DNA of 64,000 nucleotides from an uncultured Gemmata sp. Its GTDB lineage: Bacteria; Planctomycetota; Planctomycetia; Gemmatales; Gemmataceae. Every line of letters starts with the position of its first letter. The first letter of the stretch is position 1. The notes under the pieces are model-generated. The model saw nothing but the letters and a program-made list of their open reading frames with translations, did no database searches and was not told the origin of the DNA. Positions 33,226-55,654 of the stretch are shown piece after piece. Position numbers and translations under genes: made by a program. The stretch is from positions 186,001 through 250,000 of the forward strand of contig CALDUT010000004.1 of assembly GCA_937924775.1 (NCBI GenBank), given 5' to 3'.

Positions 33226-33243
33226 CCCGCTCGACTGGAGTTC

Positions 33244-37565: not shown

Positions 37566-40500
37566 ATGAACGAAATCCCACTGCAACCGCAAACGACCAA
37601 ACAGAGCGAATTCATTTTCCGGCGGACGGTCGATTCCTTCGACCAATTCTCCGGGGACTTTCTCCACGCCCTGATGGGGCATCCGATCGCCAAAATCCTC
37701 CTGGCTTTGGCGATTGTGTCGCTGGTGGCACGCGTGGTGTACCGCTACGCCAACCCCGCGGCGCGGGCGTTGGGTGCCAAGGACCCGGTGGCACGGGCCT
37801 TGCGGATCGCCTCGTGGCTGTCCCTGGCCGCTGTGATCGTTTGGACCCTTGTGGCCTTCTACAACCGCGATCTCGAACAGGGGCGGGAGGTCGTGGAGGC
37901 CGTCTCCTCGTTCGGCTCGTCCAACGACATCAAGTGGTACTCGTTCACCATTGGCTTGTTCGCTTTGGGGTGTCTGTTTGTGGGTCTGATGTACTACAAG
38001 GACTCCCAGTCGGTGCGATGGTATTGGGCCGCACCCCTGGCGCTTTTGCGCATCAGTGTTTACGGTATTCTGTGCTTCATCTTCCTCTTGCCAGCCCTAC
38101 AAACCTGGGAAGACACCCAGAAACAATCCCGCGTCGTCATTCTCCTGGACATCAGCCATAGCATCACGTCTGACAAGGCGACCGACGAGGTGGTGACCAA
38201 ACCCGGGCAGAAGGCCAAGCGCCGTATCGATTACATCATGGACTTTTTGACCGATAAGGACGTCGCATTTTTGCAAAGACTTTTGGAGAAAAACCCTGTC
38301 GCGGTCTACGCCTTCGGCAGCCGGTTGGATGAATCCCCGCAGCTCATCGCCCCCGAAGGCCCCCTGTGGAGCCGCGAAGAATGGGAGGCATTCGCCACCT
38401 ACGATTTCCGCCCCCATCTTCTGCGGGGCATCAGCGGTGTCGGTCAAACGAAGATCGAGCAATCGGACGATTGGCAACCCACCGTACGTGCCGATGCCGA
38501 TTGGGCGACGACTTGGTACGCCCGTTTGGGCATGATCCGTACGGCGGCCGCGCTCAAGCAAGGGCGGGCCGAACCCGGTCAGAGCCTGGAAAAGTTCCGC
38601 GAACAGTATCCCGGCGGAACTTGGCTTTTGGAGTTGACCGGAGAGGACCTCGACCAACTGGCCCAAAACCTCGAACGGATCGAAAAGCGGATCGATGTGG
38701 CCCGCACCATCATGCGCGGGACCAATGTGCCCGATTCGATCACCGCGGCGATCAATCGGGAATCGGCCAACATGGTCCAGGGTATCATCGTTATCTCGGA
38801 TGGGCGGAGCAACCTCGGTTCGGAAGCCAGCTATGTCGAACTCCGCGAGCGGGCCCGCCGCGAAAAGATTCCCATCTTCACCATCGTAGCGGGGGAAGAT
38901 CGGCAAACCTCGGCGATTGTCATCAGCGACGTGCTGGCCCCCGATAGTGCCCCGGTGGACGAGGCGTGGGAGATCAACGTCGAAGCCGATGGGGTGAACC
39001 TTGCGAATAAGACCGTGGAGGTGGAGCTGCACCTGTTCAAGCCTGGCTCGGATTTCGACCGCGTCGATGCCCAAGGGTATCCGCTGAGCGACTACAAGAT
39101 GACGCAGCCGATGACCTTTGCCCCGGGCGACCCGCCACATGGGCAGGTCAAATTCATCATCGACCCGGCCGATCTCAACTTGCCCGACGATCTGACCACC
39201 GAATCCAAGGATGCGGCCATCAAAAAACGGGTTCTCAAGGAAGGTAAGTGGGGCGTGAAAGCCGTGATCGCCAAACACCCGGACGAAGCCTCGGCCGATG
39301 CCTTCCACGTCCGCGCTCGCCCCGATATTAATGTGGTCCAACAAAAACTACGGATTCTCCTGATCACCGGCGCTCCCGGGCGGGAGTTCAGCTTCTTGCG
39401 CACACTTTTGGTCCGCGAAATGCAGGATCAACGGGCGACACTGACGACCTACGTTCAAAACGAAGCCGGTACCAAAGGCCAACTGACCCCGGAAATCGGC
39501 GAAACCATCATCCTCCGGTTCCCCAACCGGCTCGATTTGAGCAACAAAGATTACGGCCCTGATGAGAAACCGCTCAATCTCAACGAATACGACGTCATTA
39601 TTGCCTTCGACCCTGATTGGAGCGAATTGTCCCGCTTACAAGCCGATGATCTGGCCCGCTGGGTACGGGAAGGCGGCGGCGGGCTGATTTTCGTGGCCGG
39701 CCCGATCAACACCTTCCAGTTGGCCCGGGTAGAAATTCCCAATGGTAATCTGGTTAATCTGCTGGAAATTCTGCCGGTGATCCCGGCGGATATCGTCGCC
39801 CAACGCATCCGGCCGACCCCGACGACCCCACGCCGCCTGCGGTTGTACCCAGAACGTATTCCGGGATCCGAGTTGTTAAAGCTTGATGAGAGTGTGCCCA
39901 ACGATCCTATCGCGGGGTGGGAACCTTTCTTCACCGATCGCGAAAAATACAGCCCCGATCCCGACTGGCGGAAGGAACTGTTCCCCCGCCGGGGGTTCTT
40001 CTCGGCGTATCCGGTGACCGAAGTCAAACCGGGCAGTGCCGTGTTGGCGGAATTCATGGATGTGTCGGATACCAACGAACCGGTCCCCATCCCGTGGATC
40101 GTTACCAACAATCCTTCGGCCTCGTACCGTACGGCCTATATCGGGAACGCGGAACTGTATCGATTGCGGCCCTATCGAGCGACAGAAAACATCGGCCGCG
40201 AATACTTTGAACGATTCTGGATCAAATTCATCAAGTACATGGCCGCCAAGCGGAACTTCAAGGCTCCGCGGGGCCGGGTGCTGGTGAGCAAGGAGGGGAT
40301 TTCGGGTATGCCGCTGCGGGTGCAGGCCCGGATTTTGAACGAATCGGCCAAACCCTACGCCCCCGCCGATATTGGCGCGAAATTCAAAATCGTCCAGGAG
40401 AAAAACGGCGAGAAACGCGAATTTGGCCCCTACAACCTCAGGCCTAAAGAGGGTGTCGACGGGGCGTTTGAAGGGTATTACGACGGCCAGGTGCTGCTGG

Positions 40501-41324
40501 AGTCCAGCAAATTCCCACCCGATGATTCGATCTATCGGGTGGTGGTCGACGTGCCTGACTCGCAAGACACCCTCACCGGGGAATTCCGTATCCGGCAATC
40601 GGACCCGGAAATGGACAACCGCCGCCCCGATGTGGCCGCGATGATCCGTATGGCCAGCGAATTCAACAAGGAATTCCAAGAAAGTCGCCTGGCCGACAAA
40701 GCCGCGGTGAAAATGGCCCTGGGTAAGTATCTGCCTAAGGAAGCGGGGGTGCAACGGCTGGCTTTCCGGCTCAACGATAAGGAAGAACTCAAACTCATCC
40801 CCGAGTGCATGCTGACGTTGAAGATGCAGAATCAGAACCGTGGGCCGATCTACGACTTGTGGGATATGCCCGTGATGCTGGATTTGTCGCGGGCCTATGT
40901 CTTCAACGGGTTGTGGGTCCTGATCGGCTCGTCGCTACTGCTGCTCGTGGCCCGCATTGGCTGGCACGCTAGCGCCAGCCAACTACCCAGGGCTGTGCGG
41001 GGATTGGTCATTGGCCTGTGGGTGTTGGTAAACTTGGCCGTGTTCATCGGTGGAGCAGTGGGGGTCGCCTTCGATCCCACCTATGTGTTGCCATGGCTGG
41101 CTGCGATGCTCGTCTTTGGTTTGGCCATCTTTGCCTTTCGAGCCGAATTGACGCCGGGGCTGACGATGCTGGGCATTCTCCTGGCCAGCGGCGTGGCTTT
41201 AGCGATTGCCTGCCAGGTGGGCGACTACACCGGCATGACCGTACCCATCAGCATCGCCTTGCTCGTGATTGTGTTGCTGTTGGGGTGCGAATGGGCCACC
41301 CGGAAATTGCTCCGCTTGGCCTGA
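37566..41324 (+). CDS. Giant multi-helix membrane protein with vWA and amidotransferase-like domains
   Basis: A 1252-residue protein. Four membrane helices near the N terminus (about 42-170) are followed by a vWA-like domain. Its first strand VVILLDISHSIT keeps D-x-S-x-S, and GIIVISDGRSNLGS forms a later strand. Next are CARDB-like beta regions, a GATase-like segment (DLARWVREGGGGLIFVAGPI), another beta domain, and at least four C-terminal helices (from YVFNGLWVLIGSSLLLLVA onward). The architecture parallels the preceding BatA-type protein, suggesting ancient duplication and a shared complex with MoxR. A hairpin with a T-rich tail follows the stop. The function is not known. Confidence 0.85.
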   Translation: MNEIPLQPQTTKQSEFIFRRTVDSFDQFSGDFLHALMGHPIAKILLALAIVSLVARVVYRYANPAARALGAKDPVARALRIASWLSLAAVIVWTLVAFYNRDLEQGREVVEAVSSFGSSNDIKWYSFTIGLFALGCLFVGLMYYKDSQSVRWYWAAPLALLRISVYGILCFIFLLPALQTWEDTQKQSRVVILLDISHSITSDKATDEVVTKPGQKAKRRIDYIMDFLTDKDVAFLQRLLEKNPVAVYAFGSRLDESPQLIAPEGPLWSREEWEAFATYDFRPHLLRGISGVGQTKIEQSDDWQPTVRADADWATTWYARLGMIRTAAALKQGRAEPGQSLEKFREQYPGGTWLLELTGEDLDQLAQNLERIEKRIDVARTIMRGTNVPDSITAAINRESANMVQGIIVISDGRSNLGSEASYVELRERARREKIPIFTIVAGEDRQTSAIVISDVLAPDSAPVDEAWEINVEADGVNLANKTVEVELHLFKPGSDFDRVDAQGYPLSDYKMTQPMTFAPGDPPHGQVKFIIDPADLNLPDDLTTESKDAAIKKRVLKEGKWGVKAVIAKHPDEASADAFHVRARPDINVVQQKLRILLITGAPGREFSFLRTLLVREMQDQRATLTTYVQNEAGTKGQLTPEIGETIILRFPNRLDLSNKDYGPDEKPLNLNEYDVIIAFDPDWSELSRLQADDLARWVREGGGGLIFVAGPINTFQLARVEIPNGNLVNLLEILPVIPADIVAQRIRPTPTTPRRLRLYPERIPGSELLKLDESVPNDPIAGWEPFFTDREKYSPDPDWRKELFPRRGFFSAYPVTEVKPGSAVLAEFMDVSDTNEPVPIPWIVTNNPSASYRTAYIGNAELYRLRPYRATENIGREYFERFWIKFIKYMAAKRNFKAPRGRVLVSKEGISGMPLRVQARILNESAKPYAPADIGAKFKIVQEKNGEKREFGPYNLRPKEGVDGAFEGYYDGQVLLESSKFPPDDSIYRVVVDVPDSQDTLTGEFRIRQSDPEMDNRRPDVAAMIRMASEFNKEFQESRLADKAAVKMALGKYLPKEAGVQRLAFRLNDKEELKLIPECMLTLKMQNQNRGPIYDLWDMPVMLDLSRAYVFNGLWVLIGSSLLLLVARIGWHASASQLPRAVRGLVIGLWVLVNLAVFIGGAVGVAFDPTYVLPWLAAMLVFGLAIFAFRAELTPGLTMLGILLASGVALAIACQVGDYTGMTVPISIALLVIVLLLGCEWATRKLLRLA

Positions 41325-41498: not shown

Positions 41499-44400
41499 AT
41501 GGCCACCGTTCAAGATCAACCAGCCCGCCAACCGACCGATAAGCGATTCGCGGAAAGCGATCCCCAGATGTATCACCCGCTCGATCGGCTCCGCAGCATC
41601 ATCCGCCGCTATGTCGTCATCGAAGGGGTGCTCTTCGCGATTCTTTTTCTGGCGGTTTGGTTGGCCGTGGGCCTGATTCTCGACTACGGCCTGTTCAAAC
41701 TCACCGGCTGGGACTGGGTGCAAGATGGCGCGTGGTGGGTCCGGTTCGTGGGGCTGCTCATCGCGGGGGGGGTGTTTGCGTCGATCCTGATTTTCCGCAT
41801 CGTGCAGCGGCTGACCACGGAGTTGTCGTATCCTTCGCTCGCCTTGGTATTAGAACGCCGCTTTCCCAAGGTCTTGGGCGACCGGTTGATCACCGCGGTG
41901 GAAATGGCCGATGTCGAAGCGATGAGCCGCTACGGCTACTCCAAAGAGATGCTTCGGGCCACGATCGGTGAGGCCCGGCAGCGGGTCGGCACCGTGCCTG
42001 TTCAAGAAGTGTTCAACTGGCGGCGCTTGTGGACGCTGGGCCTGCTGACGATCGCGGTCCTGGCGACCACGCTCGCGTTCTCGTATGCCAGCTATGCCAT
42101 CGCCGCCCGGACAACCGACCCGGTTCGCTTCGGTTGGAAATTCGCCCATGTCGTAGGCATTTTCCTGGAGCGGAATGTGGCTCTTATGGATACCCCCTGG
42201 CCGCGACGGGCCCACCTCGAACTGGTCAATTTCCCGCCCGAAGGTGTCTTGACGGTCGGTCGCGATGCCGACGCCCCCACCATCACGGCGCGGGCATATC
42301 AGTGGGTGATCGCGGATCCCCAAGCCCCCGTCGGCTGGCGGCCGCTATTGTGGCAGGATTTGACGGAAGAACTCGTTGGTCGGCCCATCCCCGAACTGCC
42401 AGCGTTGCTGCAGAACGAAACTCACGACGACGTGATTATTGTGGCCTCGTCGGTCGACCCCCAGACACAGCCGACCCAATCTCTCTGGCGGAGCGGCCCG
42501 GAACCGAAGGGGCCGTCCCTTCAGAAAGTCGTCCGCGATGGCGTGCAGTATGAATACTTCCACGCCCCGACGGTCGATTCTGTGCAATGGTATGCTTATG
42601 AACCCCCTGGCGAAGACGCGACCACCGACGATGGCCAGCGTCATGCGCATATCAAAGCGGAATTGGGCAGCCGCTACGACGAAATCCAAGAGGTCTTCCG
42701 GGCCCTGATCGCGAAAGCCGACGATCCGAGCATGGGCCGGAAGCTGCGGCGGCTCGATGTGCCTGCCGGCGCGACCTTCAAGTTCTCGGGCCGCCGTACC
42801 GCCGGCAGTGGCGACCTGCCCCGCAAACCGAAAAATCAGTTCATTGGCGTGATCGCCGATAAAGACGGGCGGATGCCCAAAGAGGATGTCACCTTCGTGG
42901 TGCGGGCGGCCGATTTCGTCACCCCGGCCAAAAAGATCCGCCCCATTCCGCCGCCGAGCCTCAAACGGCTTTACCGCGAACAAGCTGAACCGGCTTACTT
43001 GCACCATGCCCCGCCCATTGATGCCGACAACGGCTTCTACGCTCTTGAAGGGCTGTTGCAGCGGATCGCAACCAAGGATTTGTCGCTCACCGGGGAACGC
43101 ACGGTCTTTGCTGTGCCCGCCGGCACTCAATTGACGCTCCGCGCAGAAGCGTACACCAACGACGCGGGGCAAATCGACGATGTCGATGCGATCGCTTCCG
43201 CGGTGGCCATTCCCCGCGTTGGCCGTTTCCCGGGTATGAAACTCAAGGACGGGAAACCTTCTGAAGAGCCCGTTCCTCTCCCCATCGAAGCCAACGGGGC
43301 CGGCTGGAGCATCACTTTTGACAACAAATTGGGCATTCCCGCCAAAGCCGCCCGGGGCGACAGCTTCCTGGCCCGCTGCGTGGCCATGATCCGCGAGGCC
43401 ACCAACTTCCAACTCCACGAAAATGTCGAATTCCGAGTTGAATTCGCCAACAAATACAACGTCAAAACCACACGAACCTTCCTCATCCAAGTGCAGCAGG
43501 ACCAGGCTCCGGTGGTGGAAGTGGCCGCGGATGTCATCCGCAAGCAGGGGAATCTCTATCTGGTGACTGCCAATGCCCGTATCCCCTTCAACACCGATAG
43601 CTTCATCAAGGACGACAACGGCTTGAGCAAAGTCGAATATGCTTTTGAATACTACCCGGAAGATTCCGATGTCGTCCGCGGGATTCGGGCCAAATTCGCG
43701 CTCCGTTGTCTGCTCGGAATACCGCTGCCGGGCGATTGGGCCTCGGCGGCGCTGCCGTTGGCCCATGCCGATAACCTCCGCTTCCTCGACCGCGGTGATA
43801 ATCGCCTCTACGGCTCAGCGATTGTGAGCGAATTCAACAGTCTCGTCATCCGCTTACAGCGCGACAATACCCAACGGCTCCACGAATTGCTGGCCACGCC
43901 CAAAACCGATTCCGAGGCCCCCCAAACGGTCAGGAAGGTCGAACTCAAAAGCCAGGATCGCGACTATTTCGACCTCAAAGAACTCAACGACCTGGGCAAA
44001 ATCGACCTTCGCCCCAAAAAGGATGAAGTGCAATCGATCTTCCGCATGGATTTGTACATCCAGGCGACCGATACCAACGTGGATAATGACACCGGCCCAC
44101 GCGTATCGCGCAATCCTGAACCGATCCGCCTACGGATCATCTCCGAGGGCGATTTGCTCCTCGAAATCGGCAAAGAACAGGATCAGTTGGGCTCTCGGCT
44201 TGATGAGGCCCTCGCTAAACTTGCGGCGGCCAAGCGGAATTACGAATTCGTTCGCAATTCTAATGGTTATAAAGCCGAAACTCCGGAGTTTGTCACCCCG
44301 GTGCAAGTGCGGTCGCAGGGTACCATCGGCGACATCGAAAAAGCGCGCGACATCGTCCAAACCGTAGGCCGCGAATTCCACCGGATTTACCGTGAATGCG

Positions 44401-45077
44401 AGGTGAACCGGCTCAACGAGAAAACCATCGAACAGTACCGCCGTTATGTGGATATGTTCGAAGAAATCCAAAGTGAAAATTCCTTCAAACTCAACCTCAC
44501 GACCACGTTTCCACGCACGCTCGGTTTGCTCAACCTGGTACAAAATTCGCTCAATGGTGGCCGGTGGGCTCCCCTGGTCGCGGTCAGTGATGCCGAAAAT
44601 GCCATCTACGCCCTCGAGCGGGAACTGCAAGCCATTCGCCGGGCGATCGGCGAAGCCCAAAGCCTCGATCTTTTGCGGAAAAAGATCGACAAGATTCGCA
44701 ACGATCAGGCCCGCATCGATCAAGAAATCCGCCGGATGAAGCAAGACTGGGAAGAACGTCTCAATAGCGATATCCCGACCTTCGGGGAGGTGGGCGCGGT
44801 CTTCCTCAACCGCGGCGAGAAGAAGACCATCTCGCAAAAGATCGACTGGAACCAGTACAAACAGGACGAGATCGTGGTGAAATTCTCGGTGGTGGATCCT
44901 AACAATAACCCGGTCACGGACGGGGTGATTGTCCCGGCGGAAATGACGCTCGATTTCGAGAAGCACCAATTCCGCTTTGAGTACACCATCGCCGGTGGCA
45001 GCAAACCGGGCGATTACAAAGTGCGGCTCTCCCCGGCCGTTGGCCCCCCCAAAGAATTCCCGGTAACTGTGAAGTAA
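41499..45077 (+). CDS. Giant membrane-anchored protein of the MoxR cluster, function unknown
   Basis: A 1192-residue protein. Three predicted membrane helices lie near the N terminus (about 40-65, 80-100 and 170-195). Between them is a conserved-looking helical segment (SYPSLALVLERRFPKVLGDRLITAVEMAD), reminiscent of DUF4175-type proteins, though I cannot confirm that family. The rest is a long periplasmic chain with beta-rich domains followed by a charged, probably coiled-coil region (about 880-1090). The C terminus is another beta domain. It is followed by secreted coiled-coil and helical proteins, consistent with one envelope assembly. The start has no strong ribosome site. Confidence 0.8.
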   Translation: MATVQDQPARQPTDKRFAESDPQMYHPLDRLRSIIRRYVVIEGVLFAILFLAVWLAVGLILDYGLFKLTGWDWVQDGAWWVRFVGLLIAGGVFASILIFRIVQRLTTELSYPSLALVLERRFPKVLGDRLITAVEMADVEAMSRYGYSKEMLRATIGEARQRVGTVPVQEVFNWRRLWTLGLLTIAVLATTLAFSYASYAIAARTTDPVRFGWKFAHVVGIFLERNVALMDTPWPRRAHLELVNFPPEGVLTVGRDADAPTITARAYQWVIADPQAPVGWRPLLWQDLTEELVGRPIPELPALLQNETHDDVIIVASSVDPQTQPTQSLWRSGPEPKGPSLQKVVRDGVQYEYFHAPTVDSVQWYAYEPPGEDATTDDGQRHAHIKAELGSRYDEIQEVFRALIAKADDPSMGRKLRRLDVPAGATFKFSGRRTAGSGDLPRKPKNQFIGVIADKDGRMPKEDVTFVVRAADFVTPAKKIRPIPPPSLKRLYREQAEPAYLHHAPPIDADNGFYALEGLLQRIATKDLSLTGERTVFAVPAGTQLTLRAEAYTNDAGQIDDVDAIASAVAIPRVGRFPGMKLKDGKPSEEPVPLPIEANGAGWSITFDNKLGIPAKAARGDSFLARCVAMIREATNFQLHENVEFRVEFANKYNVKTTRTFLIQVQQDQAPVVEVAADVIRKQGNLYLVTANARIPFNTDSFIKDDNGLSKVEYAFEYYPEDSDVVRGIRAKFALRCLLGIPLPGDWASAALPLAHADNLRFLDRGDNRLYGSAIVSEFNSLVIRLQRDNTQRLHELLATPKTDSEAPQTVRKVELKSQDRDYFDLKELNDLGKIDLRPKKDEVQSIFRMDLYIQATDTNVDNDTGPRVSRNPEPIRLRIISEGDLLLEIGKEQDQLGSRLDEALAKLAAAKRNYEFVRNSNGYKAETPEFVTPVQVRSQGTIGDIEKARDIVQTVGREFHRIYRECEVNRLNEKTIEQYRRYVDMFEEIQSENSFKLNLTTTFPRTLGLLNLVQNSLNGGRWAPLVAVSDAENAIYALERELQAIRRAIGEAQSLDLLRKKIDKIRNDQARIDQEIRRMKQDWEERLNSDIPTFGEVGAVFLNRGEKKTISQKIDWNQYKQDEIVVKFSVVDPNNNPVTDGVIVPAEMTLDFEKHQFRFEYTIAGGSKPGDYKVRLSPAVGPPKEFPVTVK

Positions 45078-45313
45078 CCCCGGAAGAACTCCCACTGGTA
45101 GCCGCGGCGGTTCCGCTCCAGGATCCGCCCGGTCGCCCCACGGAATACCAACGCGATTCCGGACCCCCCGGAAACGTAACAGGGTGTAACTACCAGCCGC
45201 TCTTGGGGGGGGGAGCAGTTGGCCGGCGGGGAAAATCTCGTCAGAATAATGACAGATCCATCACGCAGCGCGGGGGACCATCCCTCGACGCCACCCTGGG
45301 AGGGAAACGACTC

Positions 45314-47335
45314 ATGTTCTGCCGACCATCCCTGGCCCTGTCGCTCTCGTTCGCGGCGACAGCTAGTTTATTTGTTCTGACGTCGGTTCTCACGGCGCAA
45401 CCCCCAGCCAACTCGGCGGCAACCCCCGCCGATAGCTCTGGTATCAAACGCACCCAAGAAGAGAATCTGAAGTTCTTTAAACAGTTCTCCGAAGAGGTGT
45501 TGCGTCTGGCCCAAAAGTGGGAAAAAAGCGATGCGCCAGAAGATCGCGACCGGGCCAAATCCCTCCGGGCGGCTCTCAAACTCATCGAAGAAAAGGGAGT
45601 TGAGAAACTGTTCAGCGACTTGGTCGAAGGCCTGAGCAAGCGGGACCTCAACGGCACCGATTTCAGCACGCTTCTGGCCAAAGACAAAAAACTCATCGAA
45701 GCCCTCGATGAGATTCTCAACGTCCTCAACACCGAAGCGGAAATCGACCGCATCAAACGGGAAATCAAGGACCTCGAAGCCGCTGTGAAGGCCATCAAGG
45801 AACTCAAACGCAAACAGGAGAACCTGCGGGCCCAAACCGACATCGGCAAACGCGATAACGCCAAGATTGCCAAGGATCAAAAGGATTTGGCCAAAGAAAC
45901 GCAAGACGTGGCTAATGCCCTCAACAAGAACAACCAAGGCAACAACGGTCAGGGTGGCCAAGGCAGCCAACAAGACGCGCGGGCCGAAACCAAAGCCGAC
46001 GCCAAACCGGGTGATAACACCGGTGATGCCAAGTCCGACACCGGCGAGAACAAAAGCGACGCGAAAGGCGATGGCATGGGGAGCATGGGCGGCATGTCCG
46101 GCGACTCCCAAGCCGGTGAAGGTAAGCCTGCCGGCGAGGGCATGGGCGGCATGATGGGCGGAATGGGTAAAGAAGGCGGCGACAAGCCCGCCGGCGATCC
46201 CCAAGGCGGCGGGGACCCGAAAGCGGGTGATCCCAAAGCCAGTGGCAATCCGATGGGGGGCAACCCCATGGACCCCAAAGGAGGCGATGGCAAACCGTCA
46301 GGTGGTGAAGGCAAAGGCCAAGGCCAAGGGAAGGGGGAAGGCAAGCCCGGGGCCAGCGAAAGCCAAGGCGGTGGCGAAGGCAAGGGCATGGGCGGTGACG
46401 GCGGTATGGGAGGCATGGGCGGTATGGGAGGCCAAAGCGGTCAGCCCGGCAGCTCCAAAGGCGGTGGTCAGCAAGGCGGTGGTGGCCAGCAAAACCCCAA
46501 CCAACCCCGCGACCCGGCCCAAGAGAACGTCCAACAAGCTGTTCCGCCGCAACAACAGGCCGAAGACGACCTGAAGAAGGGTGATAACAAACAAGCCTCC
46601 AAGAATCAGGATAAGGCCATCGACCAATTGCAAAAGGCCATCGAAGAACTCGAAAAACGCCTCAAACAGTTGCGCGAAAAGGAGTTGGCGAAACTCTTGG
46701 CCAACCTCGAAGAGCGTGTCAGCCGGATGCTGAAGATGCAAATCGAGGTGAAGGCCGCAACCGAAGCCATCCACAACACCGTTCAGAATCTCGGTGGTAA
46801 ACCGGCTGTGGCGGAAATTCAAAAAAGCCAGGCCGAAGCCGAAAAGGAAGGTCAAATCATCGCCGAAGCCGACAAGGCTCTCAAACTGATGGAGGGCGAA
46901 GGCACCGCGGTTGTGTTCGCGGGAGTGTTGCAGTTGGTCAAAGGCGATATGGAATCGATCCGCAATCGCCTCAATGAAGCCCGCGTGGGTGAGGATACTC
47001 AGCAAATCGAGCAAGACGTCATCGATCAACTCAAGATGATGCTCGAAGCGCTGAAGAAAGCCAAACAGGAGTTGGAAAACAAACCGAGCGATTCCCAACC
47101 CAGCGACCCGAACGCGAAGAAGCAAGATCAGCAACTGGTCGAACTGATCAATCAACTGAAGCTGGTCCGGGCGCAACAGGAACAGCTCAACAAACGCACG
47201 ATCATGTATAACAAGCAAGACCCCGGAGAACAGGCCAAAGACCCGCTGGTCCAAGGTGAGTTGAAGAAACTGGCTGATCACCAGAAGTTCTTGCAAGATC
47301 TGATTCACAAGATCGCGACACAGGCCAACCAATAA
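45314..47335 (+). CDS. Exported coiled-coil protein with a Gly/Met/Lys-rich low-complexity centre
   Basis: About 673 residues. The signal peptide MFCRPSLALSLSFAATASLFV is followed by a charged helical region (about 35-210), a long low-complexity centre rich in Gly, Lys, Gln and Met with repeated GMGGMGG and GGGEGKG-type units (about 215-410), and a C-terminal coiled coil (about 430-670). No enzyme motif is visible; a structural or scaffold role in the periplasm is likely. The frame extends upstream to 45203, but ATG 45314 follows GGGAGGG and begins the signal peptide. It is followed by a GC hairpin. Confidence 0.82.
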   Translation: MFCRPSLALSLSFAATASLFVLTSVLTAQPPANSAATPADSSGIKRTQEENLKFFKQFSEEVLRLAQKWEKSDAPEDRDRAKSLRAALKLIEEKGVEKLFSDLVEGLSKRDLNGTDFSTLLAKDKKLIEALDEILNVLNTEAEIDRIKREIKDLEAAVKAIKELKRKQENLRAQTDIGKRDNAKIAKDQKDLAKETQDVANALNKNNQGNNGQGGQGSQQDARAETKADAKPGDNTGDAKSDTGENKSDAKGDGMGSMGGMSGDSQAGEGKPAGEGMGGMMGGMGKEGGDKPAGDPQGGGDPKAGDPKASGNPMGGNPMDPKGGDGKPSGGEGKGQGQGKGEGKPGASESQGGGEGKGMGGDGGMGGMGGMGGQSGQPGSSKGGGQQGGGGQQNPNQPRDPAQENVQQAVPPQQQAEDDLKKGDNKQASKNQDKAIDQLQKAIEELEKRLKQLREKELAKLLANLEERVSRMLKMQIEVKAATEAIHNTVQNLGGKPAVAEIQKSQAEAEKEGQIIAEADKALKLMEGEGTAVVFAGVLQLVKGDMESIRNRLNEARVGEDTQQIEQDVIDQLKMMLEALKKAKQELENKPSDSQPSDPNAKKQDQQLVELINQLKLVRAQQEQLNKRTIMYNKQDPGEQAKDPLVQGELKKLADHQKFLQDLIHKIATQANQ

Positions 47336-47382: not shown

Positions 47383-47622
47383 GACGATTCCAACCCTCCG
47401 GAATCCCCGCATCCGGACGCAACCATACCCCCCAACGCCTGCGATCCCCTGATGAAGGATCGATGAGCAACGCAAATCGCTGAACCATCAGGAGTTGTGT
47501 TCAGCCGGCTGAATAGCTAAACTGCGGTTAGAAATCCCGTGATTGGTCGTCTGAATAGATGTCCGGTCGCGTTGGCTTGGAGAACTCTCCATCTGGTCAT
47601 TATCATTATGAGGAGCGATGCC

Positions 47623-48729
47623 GTGAAGATTCGGACTCTACTCGCGGTAGCCGCCGTCACGACCGGCCTGGCCGGCTTCGCGACCCCGGCTTTCGCTGCT
47701 GAACCGGCGAAAAAGCCCAGCTTCGGCTTCAGCACCTTGAAGTCGATGCCGTTGGAGACCGCCAAAGCGAAAGCCGCGGCGTACTTGAAATCGGTGGGCC
47801 ACTTCGACCAACAAGCCTTCGATGCGATTTGGGCTAACGACAAACGTTCGATCCTCGACCGGACCGCAGATGCCCTAGCGTTAGGTAACACGGAAGTGCA
47901 AGCGTTCCTGGCCCATGCCCGCAATCCCCAGGCATCGGCCCCCGCGGAAGTTCCGGCGATTTTGAAAGATGATAAGCAAGATTCGTTTTTCCGCACTAAT
48001 GTGGCGTTGGCCTTCGCCAAGGCCGCGGCCAGCCGCCGGGTGTACGAAGAAGCCCTCGAAGCACTAAGCACCAAGGGCATCGATCCTGAAGTCGCGGTCG
48101 ATCCGGCCAGCTTCTACTTCTTCAAAGCGGTGTCAGCCCACGCCACTATGAAGAAAGAAACGGCCATCTCCTCCATCGTCAAACTCCTCGATGATGTGGC
48201 CGATTCCCCCGCACGCTACACCATGGTCGCGACCCTGATGTTCTTTGACATCCAAAACTGGTCGCCCGATCCCAAAGACCTCTCGAACATCGAGAAACTC
48301 ATGGACAATAGCGGTCGTCGGCTCGATCTGGCCCGCGGCGGTGAAAAAACCCAAGATATCCAAAAGAAAATCATCTTCCGTTTGGATGAACTCATCAAAG
48401 AACTGGAAAACAAGAACAAAGGCGGCGGTGGCGGTCAAGCCAATGGCGGCAACTGCCCCGCCGGCGGTCAGAAACCCGGGAGCAGCCCCGGTGGCGGTAC
48501 GGTCAACCCCTCCAACCCAGCCTCTGATAGTGTGATCATGGGCGGCAGCGGGGCTGGCAAAGTCGATGAAAAGCAACTGCGGCAAATTGCCCAACAGTGG
48601 GGTTCGATGCCCGCGGCCGAACGGGCCAAGGTGATCAACGAAATCACCCGCGACCTGCCTCCGAAGTTCGAACCCATGATCCGCAACTACTTCGAAGCCC
48701 TCGACAAGATGCACGGCTATAAGAAGTGA
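47623..48729 (+). CDS. Exported helical protein, function unknown
   Basis: About 368 residues. The signal peptide VKIRTLLAVAAVTTGLAGFATPAFAAE ends in a clear AFA cleavage motif. The body is helical, with a Gly/Asn-rich insert (about 270-320) between the main helical block and a short C-terminal helical domain (KVDEKQLRQIAQQWGSMPAAERAKV). The GTG at 47623 has AGGAG seven bases upstream and is preferred to two in-frame upstream starts. The composition and location suggest it is a partner of the preceding coiled-coil protein; its C terminus resembles the low-complexity-linked helical ends seen there. No family recognised. Confidence 0.78.
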   Translation: MKIRTLLAVAAVTTGLAGFATPAFAAEPAKKPSFGFSTLKSMPLETAKAKAAAYLKSVGHFDQQAFDAIWANDKRSILDRTADALALGNTEVQAFLAHARNPQASAPAEVPAILKDDKQDSFFRTNVALAFAKAAASRRVYEEALEALSTKGIDPEVAVDPASFYFFKAVSAHATMKKETAISSIVKLLDDVADSPARYTMVATLMFFDIQNWSPDPKDLSNIEKLMDNSGRRLDLARGGEKTQDIQKKIIFRLDELIKELENKNKGGGGGQANGGNCPAGGQKPGSSPGGGTVNPSNPASDSVIMGGSGAGKVDEKQLRQIAQQWGSMPAAERAKVINEITRDLPPKFEPMIRNYFEALDKMHGYKK

Positions 48730-48882: not shown

Positions 48883-50142
48883 ATGATGTTCACCCGGAAA
48901 TTGCTTCGCCCCGCGGCGGCTGTCCTCGTTGCCAGCGTGATGACGAGTGCGGCCCTGGTGGTAGCGACGGCCCGCGGCGACGATGTGACCACCACCGCCG
49001 GCAAAAAAATCAGCGGTAAGCTCGTTGGTGTCGATGCGAAAGGGATTACCTTTGTCACACAGCAAGCGCAGGTGGATATTCCGGGTCGCGATCTGGTCGT
49101 AGTAGACTTCGGGAACAAAATCCTGCCGCCCCCAGCGACCTATTCGGAAATCGAATTGACCGATGGATCGCTCCTGCGTATGAACCGGTTTGTTATCAAG
49201 GACAAAACCTTCGAGTGTGAGCCCTTGCCGTCACCCCATGAGGTGAAAGCCCCGACGTTCGACATTCCGATCCGCACCGTCTTCACTGCCATCAAGAAAG
49301 CTCACGATCCCAAAATCACCGCGGCATGGAAGAAGATGCTGGCCACACGCGGCAAACGTGACCTGTACGTTCTCGAACGGGAAACCGATCTCACCTATGT
49401 TCAAGGCACCATCGAATCGGCCAGTGCCGATGGCCGCGAATTGAAGTTCCAAAACGAAAGCGGCGATCGCACCGATACGCTGCTGCAATCCCGTGCGGCG
49501 GGCTATGTCTTCGCCCAACCACAACCCACCCAACTACCGCCGACGATCTGCCGGGTTCACGATGTGTACGGAAACATCCTCAACGCTACAGCCATCACGT
49601 TAGGTACCGACGAGAGCGTCACCGTGGTCACGGTTGCCGGGGCCAAGATTCACTACCCGTCGATCCGGGCTCTGGTACGGCTCGACTATGCTCAGGGAAA
49701 TGTCACGTATCTGTCGGACCTTGATCCAAAAGTGGAGGCGGCAGAACTGCCGGCCGATGAACTCAAATTGAACGTGACGGTCCCGTACTTGAAGGATCGT
49801 TCGCTGGCTAACGAGGCGATCAAGCTCGATAACACCGTTTTCCCTAAGGGCTTATGTATTGCTCCGGATACCGTCCTCACCTTCGATCTCACAAGTGACT
49901 ACAGCCAGTTGAAAGCCATGGCTGGCATCGACGAAAACGGGGCCAACGCCACCAGTAGCGCGAAACTCACGATCGAAGGAGATGGTCAGATTCTCTTCTC
50001 GGCCACCCTCAACCGCCAAGAGCGGGCGAAGCCGATTGTGCTGGCCATCACTGGCATCAAGCAACTGCGGGTGATTGTGGAAGCCGATACGCCCTTCAAT
50101 GGCAATTACGTCACGCTCGCCGACGCCCGCGTGCAGAAATGA
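48883..50142 (+). CDS. Exported NPCBM/NEW2-type domain protein
   Basis: A 419-residue exported protein. A signal peptide (RKLLRPAAAVLVASVMTSAALVV) is followed by small beta domains (the first with KKISGKLVGVDAKGITF, which recurs loosely later) and a C-terminal NPCBM-like carbohydrate-binding jelly roll (about 265-415). That domain includes VFPKGLCIAPDTVLTFDL and AMAGIDENGA, the usual pattern of this family. It probably binds glycans in the envelope. The start is one of two adjacent ATGs. Its stop overlaps a possible upstream start of the next gene (ATGA at 50139), suggesting read-through into the HtrA genes. Confidence 0.82.
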   Translation: MMFTRKLLRPAAAVLVASVMTSAALVVATARGDDVTTTAGKKISGKLVGVDAKGITFVTQQAQVDIPGRDLVVVDFGNKILPPPATYSEIELTDGSLLRMNRFVIKDKTFECEPLPSPHEVKAPTFDIPIRTVFTAIKKAHDPKITAAWKKMLATRGKRDLYVLERETDLTYVQGTIESASADGRELKFQNESGDRTDTLLQSRAAGYVFAQPQPTQLPPTICRVHDVYGNILNATAITLGTDESVTVVTVAGAKIHYPSIRALVRLDYAQGNVTYLSDLDPKVEAAELPADELKLNVTVPYLKDRSLANEAIKLDNTVFPKGLCIAPDTVLTFDLTSDYSQLKAMAGIDENGANATSSAKLTIEGDGQILFSATLNRQERAKPIVLAITGIKQLRVIVEADTPFNGNYVTLADARVQK

Positions 50143-50216: not shown

Positions 50217-52061
50217 ATGATACGATCTGTCCTTCGTCTGTTGCGCTCGTGGGCGTGGCTTGGGCCGGTCGGGGCCACGCTGGCGTTGGTGGTGGCGGTG
50301 GCATTGCCCTGGGCCCCGGCGGCACCACTTGATGTGGACCGGGTCGTACTCGAGGAACAAAGCCAACGCATCGAAACCATCAAGAAAGTTCACCCGGCTA
50401 TTGTCGCGGTGTGCATGCAAGGTGGGCAGGGCGTCGGCAGCGGTGTTCTCATTGACCCTGAGGGTTACGCCCTGACCAACTTTCACGTGGTACAACCCAC
50501 CGGGCCGCTTATGCAAGCCGGGCTGGCCGACGGGGTTCTTTACGATGCGGTCGTCTGTGGGATTGATAAAGTCGGCGACGTCGCCCTCATCAAGCTATTG
50601 CCCAAAGAGAAGGGGAAACCTTTTCCCTACGTGAAACTCGGCGACAGCGACAAAGTCCGGGCTGGGGACTGGTCGCTGGCGATGGGCAACCCGTTCTCCC
50701 TGGCCATGGACTTCACCCCCACGGTGACCTTCGGGATTGTCAGCGGTGTGAACCGATACCAGCCGCCCGAAGGCAAGGGCTTACTCGAATACACCGACTG
50801 TATCCAGATCGAAACGTCGATCAATCCCGGTAATTCCGGTGGCCCTTTGTTCAATATGGATGGCGCATTGATTGGCATCAACGGCCGCGGTTCGTTTGAA
50901 AAGCGCGGTCGAGTCAACTCCGGTGTCGGTTACGCGATTTCGATCAACCAAATCAAGAATTTCCTGGGCCATCTGTACGGCGGCATCGATAGCGACCATG
51001 CCACCCTAGGGGCTGCCATCGGCACAGCCAACGAAGATGCCCCGTTGGCGCAGATGATCGTCAAACAGATTCTCGATGAAAGCGATGCCTACCGCCGGGG
51101 CTTACGCGAAGGCGATCAACTGCTGGAATTCGCCGGGCGGCGTGTCAATAGTACCAACGAATATAAGAATATTCTCGGTATCTATCCCAAAGAATGGCGG
51201 CTGCCGTTGACGATCCGCCGCGGCACCACCACCCGCGAAATACTTGTGCGGCTCATGGGCAACCAGGCCCAAGTCATCGAAAAGAAGGACCAACCGCCAG
51301 AACAACCGCAACCCCGGCCGCAACCGGTGCCGCTGCCCAAAGGCCCCCGCCCCAGTGGCGAGGCTGCCAAAATGTACGAAGCTCGCAAAGGTTTCTCCAA
51401 CTGGTATTTCAATGTTGTCGAGCAGAAGAAACTTCTGGAGAAGTTCAAAAACCACGGAGATTTCTCCGAACTCTGCGGCACTTGGACCATCGAGGGCCAA
51501 TATGAACAGCCCGACCGCCGCGGACCGATGAAAATCGTGCTGAGCGAAGGCGCAGAAGGCACGAAAATCACTATGAAGCTGAATATCGAAACGAGCCTCG
51601 AACCCCTGCGCCAGAGCGATCTGCGCTTGCAACAAGAACCGATTGGCAGCGGCGGCTTGATGATGGCCATGTATCACTATCGCCGCTTCCTGACCCTGGG
51701 AGCCAAAGGCTTTGAAGGTTTGTTCGCTTACGGTGGGTATGCCCCATTTTACCCGTTCCCGATCGATGGCTCGGAACCGAAATCGCTTGCGGCTTTGCGG
51801 GTGGACTGCGACCTGATGATCACCAAACACGGTTCGGTCGAGTGCCGTTGGTACTTTGCTCGCACCGATGGCACACTGCTGGGCTTTGAAACCTATGTGG
51901 CCAAAGATGCCGACAACCTCGACGACCGCGACCCCTGCGAAGTGTACTTCCACGATTACAAAGAGGTCGGCGGACGCAAACTGCCGCACACGATGAACGT
52001 CCGCTTCGGCAACAAACGCTATGCACTCCTAACTGTGACGAGCTACAACCTCGAAAAGTAA
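50217..52061 (+). CDS. HtrA-like serine protease with PDZ domain, intact triad
   Basis: About 614 residues. The N-terminal signal/anchor (IRSVLRLLRSWAWLGPVGATLALVVAVALPW) is followed by a trypsin-like domain. With numbering from ATG 50217 the triad is His90 in TNFHVV, Asp121 in GDVALIKL and Ser207 in NPGNSGGPL, so it should be an active periplasmic protease. A PDZ domain follows (about 265-360, DAYRRGLREGDQLLEFAGR). The C-terminal ~220 residues after a Pro/Gln linker form an extra beta-rich domain. The frame opens earlier at 50139, overlapping the previous stop, but the signal peptide begins at 50217. It is the first of three adjacent HtrA-type genes. Confidence 0.88.
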   Translation: MIRSVLRLLRSWAWLGPVGATLALVVAVALPWAPAAPLDVDRVVLEEQSQRIETIKKVHPAIVAVCMQGGQGVGSGVLIDPEGYALTNFHVVQPTGPLMQAGLADGVLYDAVVCGIDKVGDVALIKLLPKEKGKPFPYVKLGDSDKVRAGDWSLAMGNPFSLAMDFTPTVTFGIVSGVNRYQPPEGKGLLEYTDCIQIETSINPGNSGGPLFNMDGALIGINGRGSFEKRGRVNSGVGYAISINQIKNFLGHLYGGIDSDHATLGAAIGTANEDAPLAQMIVKQILDESDAYRRGLREGDQLLEFAGRRVNSTNEYKNILGIYPKEWRLPLTIRRGTTTREILVRLMGNQAQVIEKKDQPPEQPQPRPQPVPLPKGPRPSGEAAKMYEARKGFSNWYFNVVEQKKLLEKFKNHGDFSELCGTWTIEGQYEQPDRRGPMKIVLSEGAEGTKITMKLNIETSLEPLRQSDLRLQQEPIGSGGLMMAMYHYRRFLTLGAKGFEGLFAYGGYAPFYPFPIDGSEPKSLAALRVDCDLMITKHGSVECRWYFARTDGTLLGFETYVAKDADNLDDRDPCEVYFHDYKEVGGRKLPHTMNVRFGNKRYALLTVTSYNLEK

Positions 52062-52138
52062 GCGAACGGCTGATTCGACAGGATCACGGGTTGGTGATCC
52101 GCCGCCCACACGCATTCTTCTTCCGAGCACGACCTGCT

Positions 52139-53338
52139 ATGTGGACACGCACGATTTTGATGGGCATTCTCGCACTGGGGGCGATTCTGCCCACCCCTGT
52201 ACCGCTGGCCGCAGCCGATCCATTGGTGGATGTGGCCAAAGAAGCGAACAAGAAGATGGTGAAGTTGTTCGGAGCCGGTGGCTTTTCGCGGCTCAATAAC
52301 TACGCCACAGGGATTATCGTCAGCCCACAGGGGCACGTTATCACGGTGGCCAGCCAAATTCTCGATACCCCGGATTTGGTTGTCCATCTCTACGACGGCA
52401 CCCGCTTGCCAGCTCAGGTGCTCGTCACCGAACGTGAACTGGATATTGCCCTGCTCAAGATCCGGTCGCCTGGCAAGAAATTGGAAGACCCACTTGACGA
52501 ATCCCTCGAATACTTCGACTTCCTCGCCGCGGCCAAACGCCCGCCCGCGGAAGTGGGGGATTGGGTGATCGCGTTGAGCAACACCTTCGAAATCGCCCTG
52601 CGCGATGAACCCCTCAGCGTCCAGCGTGGGGTGATCGCAGCCTACACCAAAATGGCCGGTCGCCGCGGCGTCTTCGAGTTTCCCTACACCGGCGATGTGT
52701 ACATCGTGGATGCCATCACCAACAATCCCGGGGCTGCTGGCGGGGCACTGCTCAACCGCAAAGGCGAACTCCTCGGCATCATTGGCCGCGAACTCAAAAA
52801 TACCCTCAGCGAGACATGGATGAACTACGCGATTCCTGTCACCGGCAAAGCCGAGGTGGTGCAACGGGTCCTGCTGAAGGACAAAGACGGCAACGTTATC
52901 AAGGACAAAGACGGCAAGGAGGTATACGAAGAGAAAACCGTCACCGTGACCATGGCCGAATTCGTTGAATTGGGCATGCAAGGGAAGTACAAACCGATTG
53001 AAGGCAAAAACACCATCGGCGGCATCGGCGGTTATCACGGCATTCTCTTTGTCCCCAACATTCTCGACCGGACACCGGCCTACATCGAGGATGTTGTGCC
53101 CGGTTCCCCCGCCGACAAAGCCGGCCTGCGATCCGATGATCTGGTCAGCTTCATCGATGGCGAACCGGTCATCAGCATCAACGCCTTCAACGACTACATC
53201 AAGAAACGCACCCGGGCCGGTACCGTCGTGCGGCTGGAGGTGCGTCGCGGGGAAGTGCTGGAAACTATCGAACTGACACTCGAAGCCCACCCCGCCCCCC
53301 CGAATTCTTCGGGGCCGCCCACACCGCCCAAACAATAA
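52139..53338 (+). CDS. HtrA-like PDZ protein lacking catalytic His and Ser (pseudoprotease)
   Basis: About 399 residues with signal peptide (MWTRTILMGILALGAILPTP). The trypsin-like fold is recognisable: the His loop reads VITVASQIL, with Ser72 at the His position, Asp102 is kept in LDIALLKI, and the Ser loop reads NNPGAAGGAL, with Ala200 at the Ser position. With two triad residues gone, proteolysis is not expected. A PDZ domain follows (about 305-380, GSPADKAGLRSDDLVSFIDG). It probably binds exposed C termini or partners of the neighbouring active HtrA. ATG 52139 is preferred to the TTG at 52091 because the signal peptide starts there. Confidence 0.85.
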   Translation: MWTRTILMGILALGAILPTPVPLAAADPLVDVAKEANKKMVKLFGAGGFSRLNNYATGIIVSPQGHVITVASQILDTPDLVVHLYDGTRLPAQVLVTERELDIALLKIRSPGKKLEDPLDESLEYFDFLAAAKRPPAEVGDWVIALSNTFEIALRDEPLSVQRGVIAAYTKMAGRRGVFEFPYTGDVYIVDAITNNPGAAGGALLNRKGELLGIIGRELKNTLSETWMNYAIPVTGKAEVVQRVLLKDKDGNVIKDKDGKEVYEEKTVTVTMAEFVELGMQGKYKPIEGKNTIGGIGGYHGILFVPNILDRTPAYIEDVVPGSPADKAGLRSDDLVSFIDGEPVISINAFNDYIKKRTRAGTVVRLEVRRGEVLETIELTLEAHPAPPNSSGPPTPPKQ

Positions 53339-53488
53339 ACCGCCGCTAGCCAAGAGGGGAGCCGGTGCATTTGACCCATCCTGGCGCAGGTCCCCGATTC
53401 ACCCAAAAGGCGGTCTGCAGACTGAAACCACGACACCGTTGACATCGAATGGCTGACCAGATTTTGAACAACTTACGGAATCACACCG

Positions 53489-55654
53489 ATGCGAGCGATT
53501 TCCTACCGGCCGATACGCATGGGCGTCGCGATGATCACCGCGGTGCTGGCGACCGCCTCCCCGGTGATCGCCCAGGCACCGACCGATCTGAACGAAGCGA
53601 TTGAGCGAGCCTTGAAAGCCGCCTCCGCCCGGGTGGCCCCAACCATCGTGAAGATCGAAACCGCTGGCGGAGCCGAAGTGATCAGCGGCGGCAAGAAAGG
53701 CGGCCCACCCGGACCCATCATCCGCAAAGGTACCGGACCCACCACCGGGCTGATTGTTTCCGCCGATGGCTATGTCATTTCCAGTAGCTTCAACTTCGCC
53801 AACAAACCGACGGAAATCTTCATCACGGTGCCCGGGCGGCAGCGGTATGTGGCCAAAATCGTCGCCCACGACCAAACCCGTATGCTCACCCTCCTCAAGA
53901 TCGACGCCACCGATCTGCCAGTGCCGGTACCATTCCCCAAAAAGGAGATCGAGGTTGGTCAATGGGCCATCTCGCTGGGCCGTACCCTGGACAACAACAT
54001 CGATCGCCCACCGTCGATGAGCATTGGTATTGTCAGTGCGACCAATCGCATCTGGGGGAAAGCCATTCAAACGGATGCTAAGACATCCCCCGTCAACTAC
54101 GGTGGGCCTCTGGTGGCCGTCGATGGGCGGGTACTGGGTGTGATCGTTCCCGCGTCGAATCGGGCTGAAGGCGAAACCGCGGGGGTGGAAGTGTACGACG
54201 GTGGCATCGGCTTTGCCATCCCCTTGGAAGACATCAACCGCGTCCTGCCACGACTCAAGGAAGGCAAAGACCTCAAACGTGGTCTTTTGGGCATCAACCC
54301 CCAAGGGGCGGACGCCTACAACTTTCCCCCCATTATCGGGGCGATCCAACCCGACTCCGCTGCGGCCCGGGCCGGCTTGGCCATTGGTGACAAGATCATC
54401 GAAGTTACGGTGGGCGGTGAAACCAAAAAAGTTCCCAACTACTCGACCCTCCAGCACATTCTCGGCCCCCTGTACGAGGGCGACGAAATCGCGCTGAAGG
54501 TCGTTCGCGGCGATCAAGAACTGGAGTTCAAGAGCATCAAACTGATGGGCACCGTAACGGCCTATGTCGCCGCGTTTTTGGGGGTTCTGCCCATGCGGGA
54601 TGATCCGGGGCCAGGGGTTGAAGTCCGCTACGTTTACCCCAATAGCCCGGCCGCAGTGGCTGGCATCAAAGAAGGCGACCGCATCATGAAACTCGCTCCG
54701 GCGAATGTGCCCGCCCTCTCCCCCATCGCCAACCGGGCGGCACTCCTGGCCGCGATGCAACGCCTGACCCCCGGTACCGAAATTAAAATCGAATTGAAAC
54801 GCAAAGAAGGCGAGAAAGTCGAAACCATCACGGCGAAATTGGTCCCGATGCCCGATATTCTGCCGGAACGGCTGCCGTTGCCATCGTCGGCAGGCAAAGC
54901 CCTCGAGGAGCAGCCCAAACCCAAAGACCCGTTCCCTCCGGGGAAAAAACCGTTCCCGCCCAAGGAGCCGGGTTTCTCCAGCATTCATGCCCTGCAACCC
55001 GACGCCAAACAGGATGACAAACCCAAAATCGAAACCGGCTTCCTGACACGAACCAACGAAGCCCTCGGTCGCGAATACTGGGTTTACATTCCCGACAATT
55101 ACGACCCGAACGTTTCCCATGGGTTACTCGTGTGGTTCCATCCTGCCGGGCAAAGTAAAGACGGGGAGAAAATAATGAGAACCTTCCGCGACTTCGCGGA
55201 AGACCATCATTTCATCGTCATGGGGCCCAAATCGAACAACAACGATGGCTGGGTGGCCAGCGAAACCGAGTTGGTCATGCAGGATGTGAAAGCGGTCCTT
55301 GGGCAATACACCATCGACCGCAGCCGCGTCGTGGCCCACGGCATGGCCAAAGGCGGCGAGATGGCCTCGTATGTGGCCCTCAATGCCCGCGACGTATTCC
55401 GCGGTGTGGCCATCGTGGGTTCACCCCTGGGAACGGCCCCGAAGGATAACCTGGCCAATCAGCCGCTGTCGTTTTTCATCGCCGTGGGCGACAAAGACCC
55501 CATTCTCAAAGAGGTGCTGGAAAGTCGAGACTTGCTGCTTGAAAAGCGGTTTCCGGTGATCTACCGCGAAATGAAAGAGAGCGGCAAGGAATACTTCGAT
55601 CTGAAGACCTTTACCGATTTTCTCGCCTGGCTGGATTCACTCGATCGCATCTAA
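53489..55654 (+). CDS. HtrA-like pseudoprotease with PDZ repeats and a degenerate esterase-fold domain
   Basis: A 721-residue exported protein. The trypsin-like part has lost all three catalytic residues: Phe101 at the His position (VISSSFNF), Met132 at the Asp position (RMLTLLKI) and Tyr204 at the Ser position (NYGGPL). Two PDZ domains follow (about 260-345 and 365-455, SPAAVAGIKEGDRIMKL). A Pro/Lys linker leads to a C-terminal alpha/beta-hydrolase of the PHB-depolymerase/esterase type (about 510-721). Its nucleophile elbow reads AHGMAKGG, with Ala620 where G-x-S-x-G needs Ser. Both enzymatic modules therefore look inactive, and the protein is best seen as a binding scaffold. It is the last gene of the long plus-strand run. 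Confidence 0.85.
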   Translation: MRAISYRPIRMGVAMITAVLATASPVIAQAPTDLNEAIERALKAASARVAPTIVKIETAGGAEVISGGKKGGPPGPIIRKGTGPTTGLIVSADGYVISSSFNFANKPTEIFITVPGRQRYVAKIVAHDQTRMLTLLKIDATDLPVPVPFPKKEIEVGQWAISLGRTLDNNIDRPPSMSIGIVSATNRIWGKAIQTDAKTSPVNYGGPLVAVDGRVLGVIVPASNRAEGETAGVEVYDGGIGFAIPLEDINRVLPRLKEGKDLKRGLLGINPQGADAYNFPPIIGAIQPDSAAARAGLAIGDKIIEVTVGGETKKVPNYSTLQHILGPLYEGDEIALKVVRGDQELEFKSIKLMGTVTAYVAAFLGVLPMRDDPGPGVEVRYVYPNSPAAVAGIKEGDRIMKLAPANVPALSPIANRAALLAAMQRLTPGTEIKIELKRKEGEKVETITAKLVPMPDILPERLPLPSSAGKALEEQPKPKDPFPPGKKPFPPKEPGFSSIHALQPDAKQDDKPKIETGFLTRTNEALGREYWVYIPDNYDPNVSHGLLVWFHPAGQSKDGEKIMRTFRDFAEDHHFIVMGPKSNNNDGWVASETELVMQDVKAVLGQYTIDRSRVVAHGMAKGGEMASYVALNARDVFRGVAIVGSPLGTAPKDNLANQPLSFFIAVGDKDPILKEVLESRDLLLEKRFPVIYREMKESGKEYFDLKTFTDFLAWLDSLDRI

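Follow-up and report, generated by a model that had tools for sequence, protein, structure and literature searches.

Why should a bacterium encode two HtrA-type proteins that have lost their catalytic residues directly beside one that has kept them? The question is raised by a 64,000-nucleotide stretch of DNA from an uncultured Gemmata sp. (contig CALDUT010000004.1, positions 186,001 to 250,000; hereafter the window). The list of open reading frames (ORFs) and Pfam place three tandem HtrA/Deg-type genes on its + strand, here called P1, P2 and P3, and all three score over the Pfam Trypsin_2 cut-off (100.3, 68.0 and 65.8 bits, respectively). P1 carries an intact triad in the motifs LTNF[H]VV, DKVG[D]VAL and NPGN[S]GGP (His116, Asp147 and Ser233, numbered from the ATG at 50139). 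The corresponding positions are Ser/Asp/Ala in P2 (ITVA[S]QIL, EREL[D]IAL, NPGA[A]GGA) and Phe/Met/Tyr in P3 (ISSS[F]NFA, DQTR[M]LTL, SPVN[Y]GGP). An earlier reading made from the letters of the window (the sequence-only reading) had the coordinates and triad residues right, as judged by ORFs, Pfam and motifs. An artefact of the window or an assembly error was ruled out, as the trio was found again in independent genomes.

Orthologues showed the substitutions to be fixed. Merging of identical or nested domains and removal of fragments shorter than 60 residues reduced the alignments from 155 to 125 rows for P1, from 164 to 137 for P2 and from 173 to 145 for P3; named loci (L087–L166) and unnamed loci come partly from the same genomes and were merged only where domains were identical. 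Loci L236–L243 and genome G231 came after the triad counts and are excluded from them. The His/Asp/Ser triad was present in 125 of 125 P1 domains, counting those of L225 and L226 because both sequences contain TNYHVV, in 0 of 134 P2 domains (137 minus three that are gapped at a site) and in 0 of 145 P3 domains. The proposal of a protease whose triad is intact beside two partners that lack it therefore holds across the orthologue sets, and no orthologue of the second or third gene kept both His and Ser. Since the same substitutions recur in every orthologue set examined, the triad changes are not due to chance.

The two partners differ in what replaces the triad. At the His site of P2 (n = 134) we found Ser in 92 domains, Asn in 26, Gly in 7, Thr in 6, Gln in 2 and Ala in 1; at the Ser site, Ala in 80, Gly in 23, Gln in 9, Pro in 6, Tyr in 5, His in 4, Phe in 3, and Ser, Asn, Glu and Asp once each. 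The only P2 with Ser at this site, that of L074, has Thr at the His site. P3 is far more uniform: the His site is aromatic in 142 of 145 domains, and the Ser site is Tyr in 144. The exceptional P3 without Tyr (Ala/Gln/Val) belongs to L205 in genome G164. This genome holds two trios; in the other, L240, P2 reads Gly/Gln/Ser and P3 Phe/Lys/Tyr. Among the later loci, P3 is Phe/Ala/Tyr in L237 and Phe/Gly/Tyr in L241. The oxyanion glycine at position 193 (chymotrypsin numbering) is found in all P1 domains and in 137 of 137 P2 domains and in none of the 145 P3 domains. Because P2 keeps Gly193 and P3 never does, the two pseudoproteases appear to be dead by two different designs.

Loss of catalytic residues could mean that P2 and P3 are functionless duplicates of P1 in decay, and that loss is all that speaks for it. 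Compared with genome G012, the nonsynonymous (dN) and synonymous (dS) divergences of the window genes are 0.064 and 1.07 for P1, 0.058 and 0.79 for P2, and 0.050 and 0.87 for P3, giving dN/dS ratios of about 0.06–0.07 for all three. Both pseudoproteases evolve under purifying selection, much as P1 does, and the reading frames of the trio are open in the families sampled. In a tree built by a quick method without bootstrap and with the triad columns removed, P1, P2 and P3 each form one clade (Shimodaira–Hasegawa-like approximate likelihood ratio test, SH-aLRT, 99, 99 and 100). By this phylogeny the three proteins are three old clades. The dN/dS values, the near-invariant residues and the separate clades rule out decay, to which we assign a negligible probability. 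They also remove one part of the sequence-only reading, which had described a stepwise loss of the triad along the three genes: there is no gradient of recent decay from P1 to P2 to P3.

It is improbable, too, that P2 and P3 are still enzymes that use other catalytic residues, such as the near-invariant Tyr of P3. Asn203 and Tyr204 of P3 are kept in 144 of 145 domains, within a run of invariant columns, which speaks for this reading. However, the aromatic substitution for His and the complete loss of Gly193 would remove both the base and the oxyanion hole of P3, and the Ser site of P2, with Ala, Gly, Gln, Pro, Tyr, His, Phe and others, offers no common nucleophile.

Co-occurrence of the three genes was tallied by reading tables of profile searches for P3, P2 and the P1 tail in 198 genomes of the class Planctomycetia. 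Matches were taken as strong at E ≤7.1e-68 for P3 (next match 4.1e-54), 1e-3 for the P1 tail and ≤2.5e-58 for P2, for which genome G055, at 1.0e-52, is ambiguous and the best match in family f3 reaches 4.7e-29. All three genes were found in 146 genomes, none in 49 and only part of the set in two, with one genome ambiguous; the trio is present in 15 of the 17 class families of this sample. The two partial genomes, G203 (P1 and P2) and G209 (P2 and P3), both have the position of the missing gene past a contig end. P1, P2 and P3 stand in this order on one strand at 45 of 49 first loci; of the other four, two are contig ends, one is a short contig holding only P3, and in G058 the genes are unlinked. 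The same order was seen at 65 of 80 named loci, a set that overlaps with the 49; in the remaining 15, P1 is missing from the sequence examined, in part of them together with P2, some being contig ends and some unlinked. Two of the P3 records, L109 and L142, are titled Bacteroidales and Candidatus Kuenenia and carry a planctomycete P3, possibly through wrong titles or mixed bins.

Linkage alone does not account for the co-occurrence, because it persists where the genes are apart on a single contig. P1, P2 and P3 lie at 4.06, 3.73 and 6.61 Mb in G061 and at 5.35, 1.55 and 1.42 Mb in G157. In G200, P1 and P2 are at 1.11 Mb and P3 at 8.45 Mb of the same contig, and in G103 and G188 P3 is 390 and 523 kb away from P1 and P2, again on one contig. 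That the three genes are almost always kept or lost together suggests that they form one working unit, and a partnership of the three proteins is strongly supported.

The trio is found outside the class as well, though far from universally in the phylum. For the 187 further genomes sampled in the phylum, P2 was taken as strong at E ≤4.3e-53 (G249, confirmed at its locus; next genome 4.7e-32) and P3 at E ≤1.2e-78, a cut-off with a narrow gap (G219 at 4.3e-69). Strong P3 occurred in the same genomes as strong P2 and in G394, where it lies on a 5.45-kb contig. All three genes were present at 20 of 20 first loci, in the order P1-P2-P3 on one strand; each P1 was His/Asp/Ser, each P3 was aromatic at the His position and had Tyr in place of Ser, and no P2 was His/Asp/Ser. 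G231, the twenty-first genome, shows the same triad pattern. In L207 and L208 a single open frame, of 1290 and 1045 codons, respectively, from stop to stop, runs through both P1 and P2.

HtrA proteases are generally described as homotrimers in which every subunit is able to cut. With a confidence somewhat better than even, we hypothesize that the trio is a periplasmic HtrA system in which the protease P1 would be governed by the pseudoproteases P2 and P3, most likely within a mixed oligomer. P1, the sole catalytic type, would do the cutting. P2 and P3 would assemble with it, perhaps as a 1:1:1 trimer instead of the homotrimer usual for HtrA; their PDZ domains would bind the tails of substrates, and they could act on P1 as a switch or gate by way of the HtrA activation loops. 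The sequence-only reading had likewise suggested a possible hetero-oligomer, whose pseudoproteases would present substrates or sense misfolding.

The nearest competitor, which we consider rather unlikely yet worth keeping in view, is that P2 and P3 share the pathway of P1 and not its oligomer, as free-standing PDZ adaptors, chaperones or ligand binders that hand clients to P1 or act beside it. Co-inheritance without linkage demands a shared pathway only. A precedent exists in MamO of magnetotactic bacteria, an HtrA protein whose protease domain has become a metal binder and whose position 193, as in all 145 P3 domains, is not glycine; the authors of that work (PMC4794232) could not detect a physical interaction with the protease MamE. 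The P1-P2 single frames in two families and the conserved P1-P2-P3 order, by contrast, fit a fixed stoichiometry better, which is where the mixed oligomer gains.

Several further observations weigh against the mixed-oligomer system. It is dispensable, since all 45 genomes of family f3 lack P1, P2 and P3 and, outside the class, strong P2 was found in only 21 of 187 genomes (12 families). The other four trio-less genomes are G139, G048, G052 and G213; G052 is a single contig, 99% complete, and in drafts an assembly gap can hide an adjoining trio. In G055 (L179, 5546–7793), upstream genes F, G, H and I are followed by a P2-like Thr/Gln/Phe gene with no P1 between them, possibly a decayed or reorganised trio. 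The shared frames of L207 and L208 both come from draft assemblies. Three PDZ models match P1, all under their cut-offs (best 19.8 versus 27 bits). Profiles of the P1 and P3 tails found no match in 19 of 20 outside-class loci, L223 having both, and in 19 of the 20 P3 aligns only through its first PDZ domain. Since these loci lack tail matches, the tails are not part of the core, which would consist of three protease-PDZ proteins.

HtrA trios or pairs of a second kind, observed at five loci from other families in the phylum, bear on the system in both directions. That trios recur there in another gene order speaks for it. Written in one-letter code for the His, Asp and Ser positions, the order is N/N/F, F/D/S, H/D/S in L238, S/N/D, F/D/T, H/D/S in L242 and H/D/S, R/G/F, N/N/T in L236; L239 and L243 have an F/D/V and an F/D/T protein beside an H/D/S one. 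The F/D/x members group with P3 (support 98) and the active members with P1 (88). The N/N/F, S/N/D and R/G/F members do not group with P2, and because this third member falls outside P2, these trios may not be the same set reordered, which counts against the system. The N/N/T protein of L236, which has no Phe, falls inside the P3 line (84). The F/D/x proteins are possible evolutionary intermediates of P3, and here the idea of stepwise loss may survive: after the change of His to Phe, Asp is still present in relatives across the phylum, and in one of them Ser too. We tentatively suggest, from few sequences, that the P3 line may have lost His before Ser and Ser before Asp.

Two domains that the sequence-only reading had missed, one on P1 and one on P3, bear on what the trio might handle. 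The AlphaFold2 (AF2) model of the P1 tail is of high confidence (predicted local distance difference test, pLDDT, 95.8; predicted template modelling score, pTM, 0.92). Foldseek matched it to LolA3 (E 5.5e-6), NE2245 (1.1e-5) and LolB (3.7e-5), with moderate template modelling (TM) scores of 0.41–0.48 by query length (0.48 for LolA3), and more weakly to MucB (1.7e-3) and RseB (best 9.2e-3); VIA-align superposed 184 residues on 3bk5 (Z 12.2, root-mean-square deviation, rmsd, 4.4). Pfam gave nothing over cut-off (DUF6544 only, E 0.032), and among PDB sequences there were four weak matches, none of them a LolA/LolB chain. The modelled domain is thus assigned to the LolA/LolB superfamily by its predicted fold and not by sequence match. 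It could add a pocket for hydrophobic clients and sense or hold lipidated or unfolded envelope proteins, for which RseB beside DegS offers a parallel of a client-sensing LolA-like domain.

The first 450 or so residues of P3 are DegQ-like (model pLDDT 87.4; VIA-align Z 27.0, rmsd 7.0, 361 residues aligned). As the Foldseek and VIA-align lists for whole P3 were full of HtrA chains, the tail was tested by sequence profile. The profile matched the PDB sequence of LC-Est1C (3wyd, E 1e-15) and 32 further distinct entries at E ≤0.01, with a feruloyl esterase at 2.1e-12; the window's own tail, searched alone, stayed under the Pfam cut-offs. In the window the nucleophile position holds Ala and the His position Lys, with Asp kept. 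Among the 80 named loci an intact Ser-Asp-His set was seen only in L157 and L162, the positions being less surely aligned in distant rows; the tails of these two may be active. Because the catalytic residues of the tail are lost in most loci, P3 of most class members examined is predicted to be a dead protease fused to a dead esterase, and its tail would probably serve as a further binding module. The tail is absent from the open frame in 7 of 9 loci of family f11 and in genomes G122 and G092.

Features of the locus are collected below. P1 counts 640 residues from its first ATG, the sequence-only reading having started it at the ATG at 50217, and the first possible start of P2 is a TTG at 52091, the ATG listed being preferred. 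The signal peptides reported by the sequence-only reading correspond to a hydrophobic N-terminal segment in each protein (hydropathy only, no signal-peptide program). Its statement that all three retain PDZ domains stands for P2 and P3, with one and two stretches over the Pfam cut-off; it is weakest for P1, where the DegP model TIGR02037 aligns across the PDZ region (residues 95–384).

Features of the trio and its upstream neighbours (window coordinates)
Feature	Coordinates	Strand	Description
P1	50217..52061 (ATG 50217; first ATG 50139)	+	HtrA/Deg protease, intact triad, weak PDZ, C-terminal LolA/LolB-like domain
P1 C-terminal domain	51360..52058	+	predicted LolA/LolB-superfamily fold, 233 aa (AF2, Foldseek, VIA-align)
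P2	52139..53338	+	predicted pseudoprotease, Ser/Asp/Ala, oxyanion glycine kept, one PDZ
P3	53489..55654	+	predicted pseudoprotease, Phe/Met/Tyr, oxyanion glycine lost, two PDZ, C-terminal pseudo-esterase; 721 aa
P3 C-terminal domain	54995..55651	+	alpha/beta-hydrolase domain by sequence profile; Ala, Asp, Lys at Ser, Asp, His positions
Gene I	48883..50142	+	NPCBM-domain protein (Pfam PF08305, 65.8 bits); directly upstream of trio, conserved
Gene H	47539..48729	+	no Pfam match at E 0.1; conserved upstream neighbour
Gene G	45203..47335	+	no Pfam match over cut-off; conserved upstream neighbour
Gene F	41499..45077	+	large protein, no Pfam match over cut-off; upstream neighbour conserved in class
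Genes B–E	32167..41324	+	MoxR AAA+ ATPase (32167), DUF58 (33331), BatA (34418), weak vWA (37566); Pfam

The trio follows a run of envelope-type genes, as the sequence-only reading had it, with MoxR, DUF58 and BatA upstream by Pfam. Most loci that extend far enough have genes G, H and I ahead of P1, and some of these genes keep that place outside the class as well; F, G and H (41499–48729) gave no NCBIfam match at E 0.01 despite their conservation with the trio. Of 7 upstream stretches from relatives, 5 have MoxR, DUF58, BatA and E ahead of F in this same order; one more shows just E-F and another just F. In L219 (G230, outside the class; 2500–8382), gene I is separated from P1 by MoxR and DUF58 genes, so that the MoxR link recurs in another arrangement. 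These neighbours may point to a functional link between the trio and the MoxR-BatA gene products. Between 41000 and 56200, a promoter scan found 5 sites versus 5.0 expected and is uninformative on operon borders; terminator-like sites numbered 33 versus 22.8 expected, with none on the + strand between P1, P2 and P3. Convergent with the trio, 55835–58969 of the window encodes, on the - strand, a sigma-54-type response regulator (Pfam) and a PAS histidine kinase. A heavy-metal P-type ATPase is encoded at 59730–61976; it and the kinase were read from ORFs by inspection only. Elsewhere in the window's own genome, L229 (G000 contig 3, 153500–159500) has two adjoining HtrA-like genes, encoding a 390-aa protein with TAAHV and GDSGG and a 359-aa protein without such a Ser motif in a motif scan.

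A fuller version of the mixed-oligomer system, which we put forward tentatively and with distinctly less confidence than its core, would be an obligate 1:1:1 ring of one active subunit and two pseudo-subunits with different fixed pseudo-active sites. In this ring the protease would bear a domain that binds lipids or lipoproteins, and a dead esterase would act as the reader; the ring would be conserved across almost the whole class and a dozen further families, and control envelope assembly with MoxR-BatA. The aromatic pair of P3 (Phe, Tyr or Trp at the His site, Tyr at the Ser site) would plug the pocket, which would read a ligand and not cut it.

Mixed proteases with inactive subunits are known in other, ATP-dependent families, as in ClpP/ClpR and FtsH/FtsHi. 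In envelope-stress sensing, DegS/RseB and AlgW/MucB combine an HtrA protease with a LolA-like sensor; P1, in contrast, has both in one chain, and its tail matches LolA/LolB better than RseB/MucB. Deg5/Deg8 of chloroplasts (PMC4877387) resemble the proposed trio as a Deg hetero-oligomer, but consist of homo-trimers in a 1:1 ratio, and the passages that describe them mention catalytic histidines of both proteins (rotated in crystals) and no lost triads. Planctomycetes are reported to have many PDZ proteins (PMC6411480, the main text of which does not use the words 'inactive' or 'catalytic'), and the papers listed by a full-text literature search, with most subscription journals outside it, included none on a three-part HtrA set in Planctomycetota.

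The closest precedent is MamE/MamO. There, according to PMC4794232, an active and an inactive HtrA protein with a degenerate triad share one cluster, triad loss was repeated in independent lineages, and the noncatalytic partner is needed for the protease's work, MamO activating MamE without catalysis. At position 193 MamO is like P3 and unlike P2. The trio differs in having two pseudoproteases instead of one, in occurring in another phylum, in giving no Pfam match to a TauE domain and in the tails of P1 and P3; against the NCBIfam equivalogs, the best MamE and MamO scores (111.7 and 44.7 bits, both for P1) lie far under the cut-off of 800. The pairing of active and dead HtrA proteins was thus already known, and what appears to be new is a three-part set in Planctomycetota: another case, beside MamE/MamO, of dead HtrA copies beside a live one, here with two pseudoproteases. 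With more than 100 natural sequence sets, joined and unlinked versions, possible intermediates and a family without the trio, it makes the role of pseudoprotease subunits testable.

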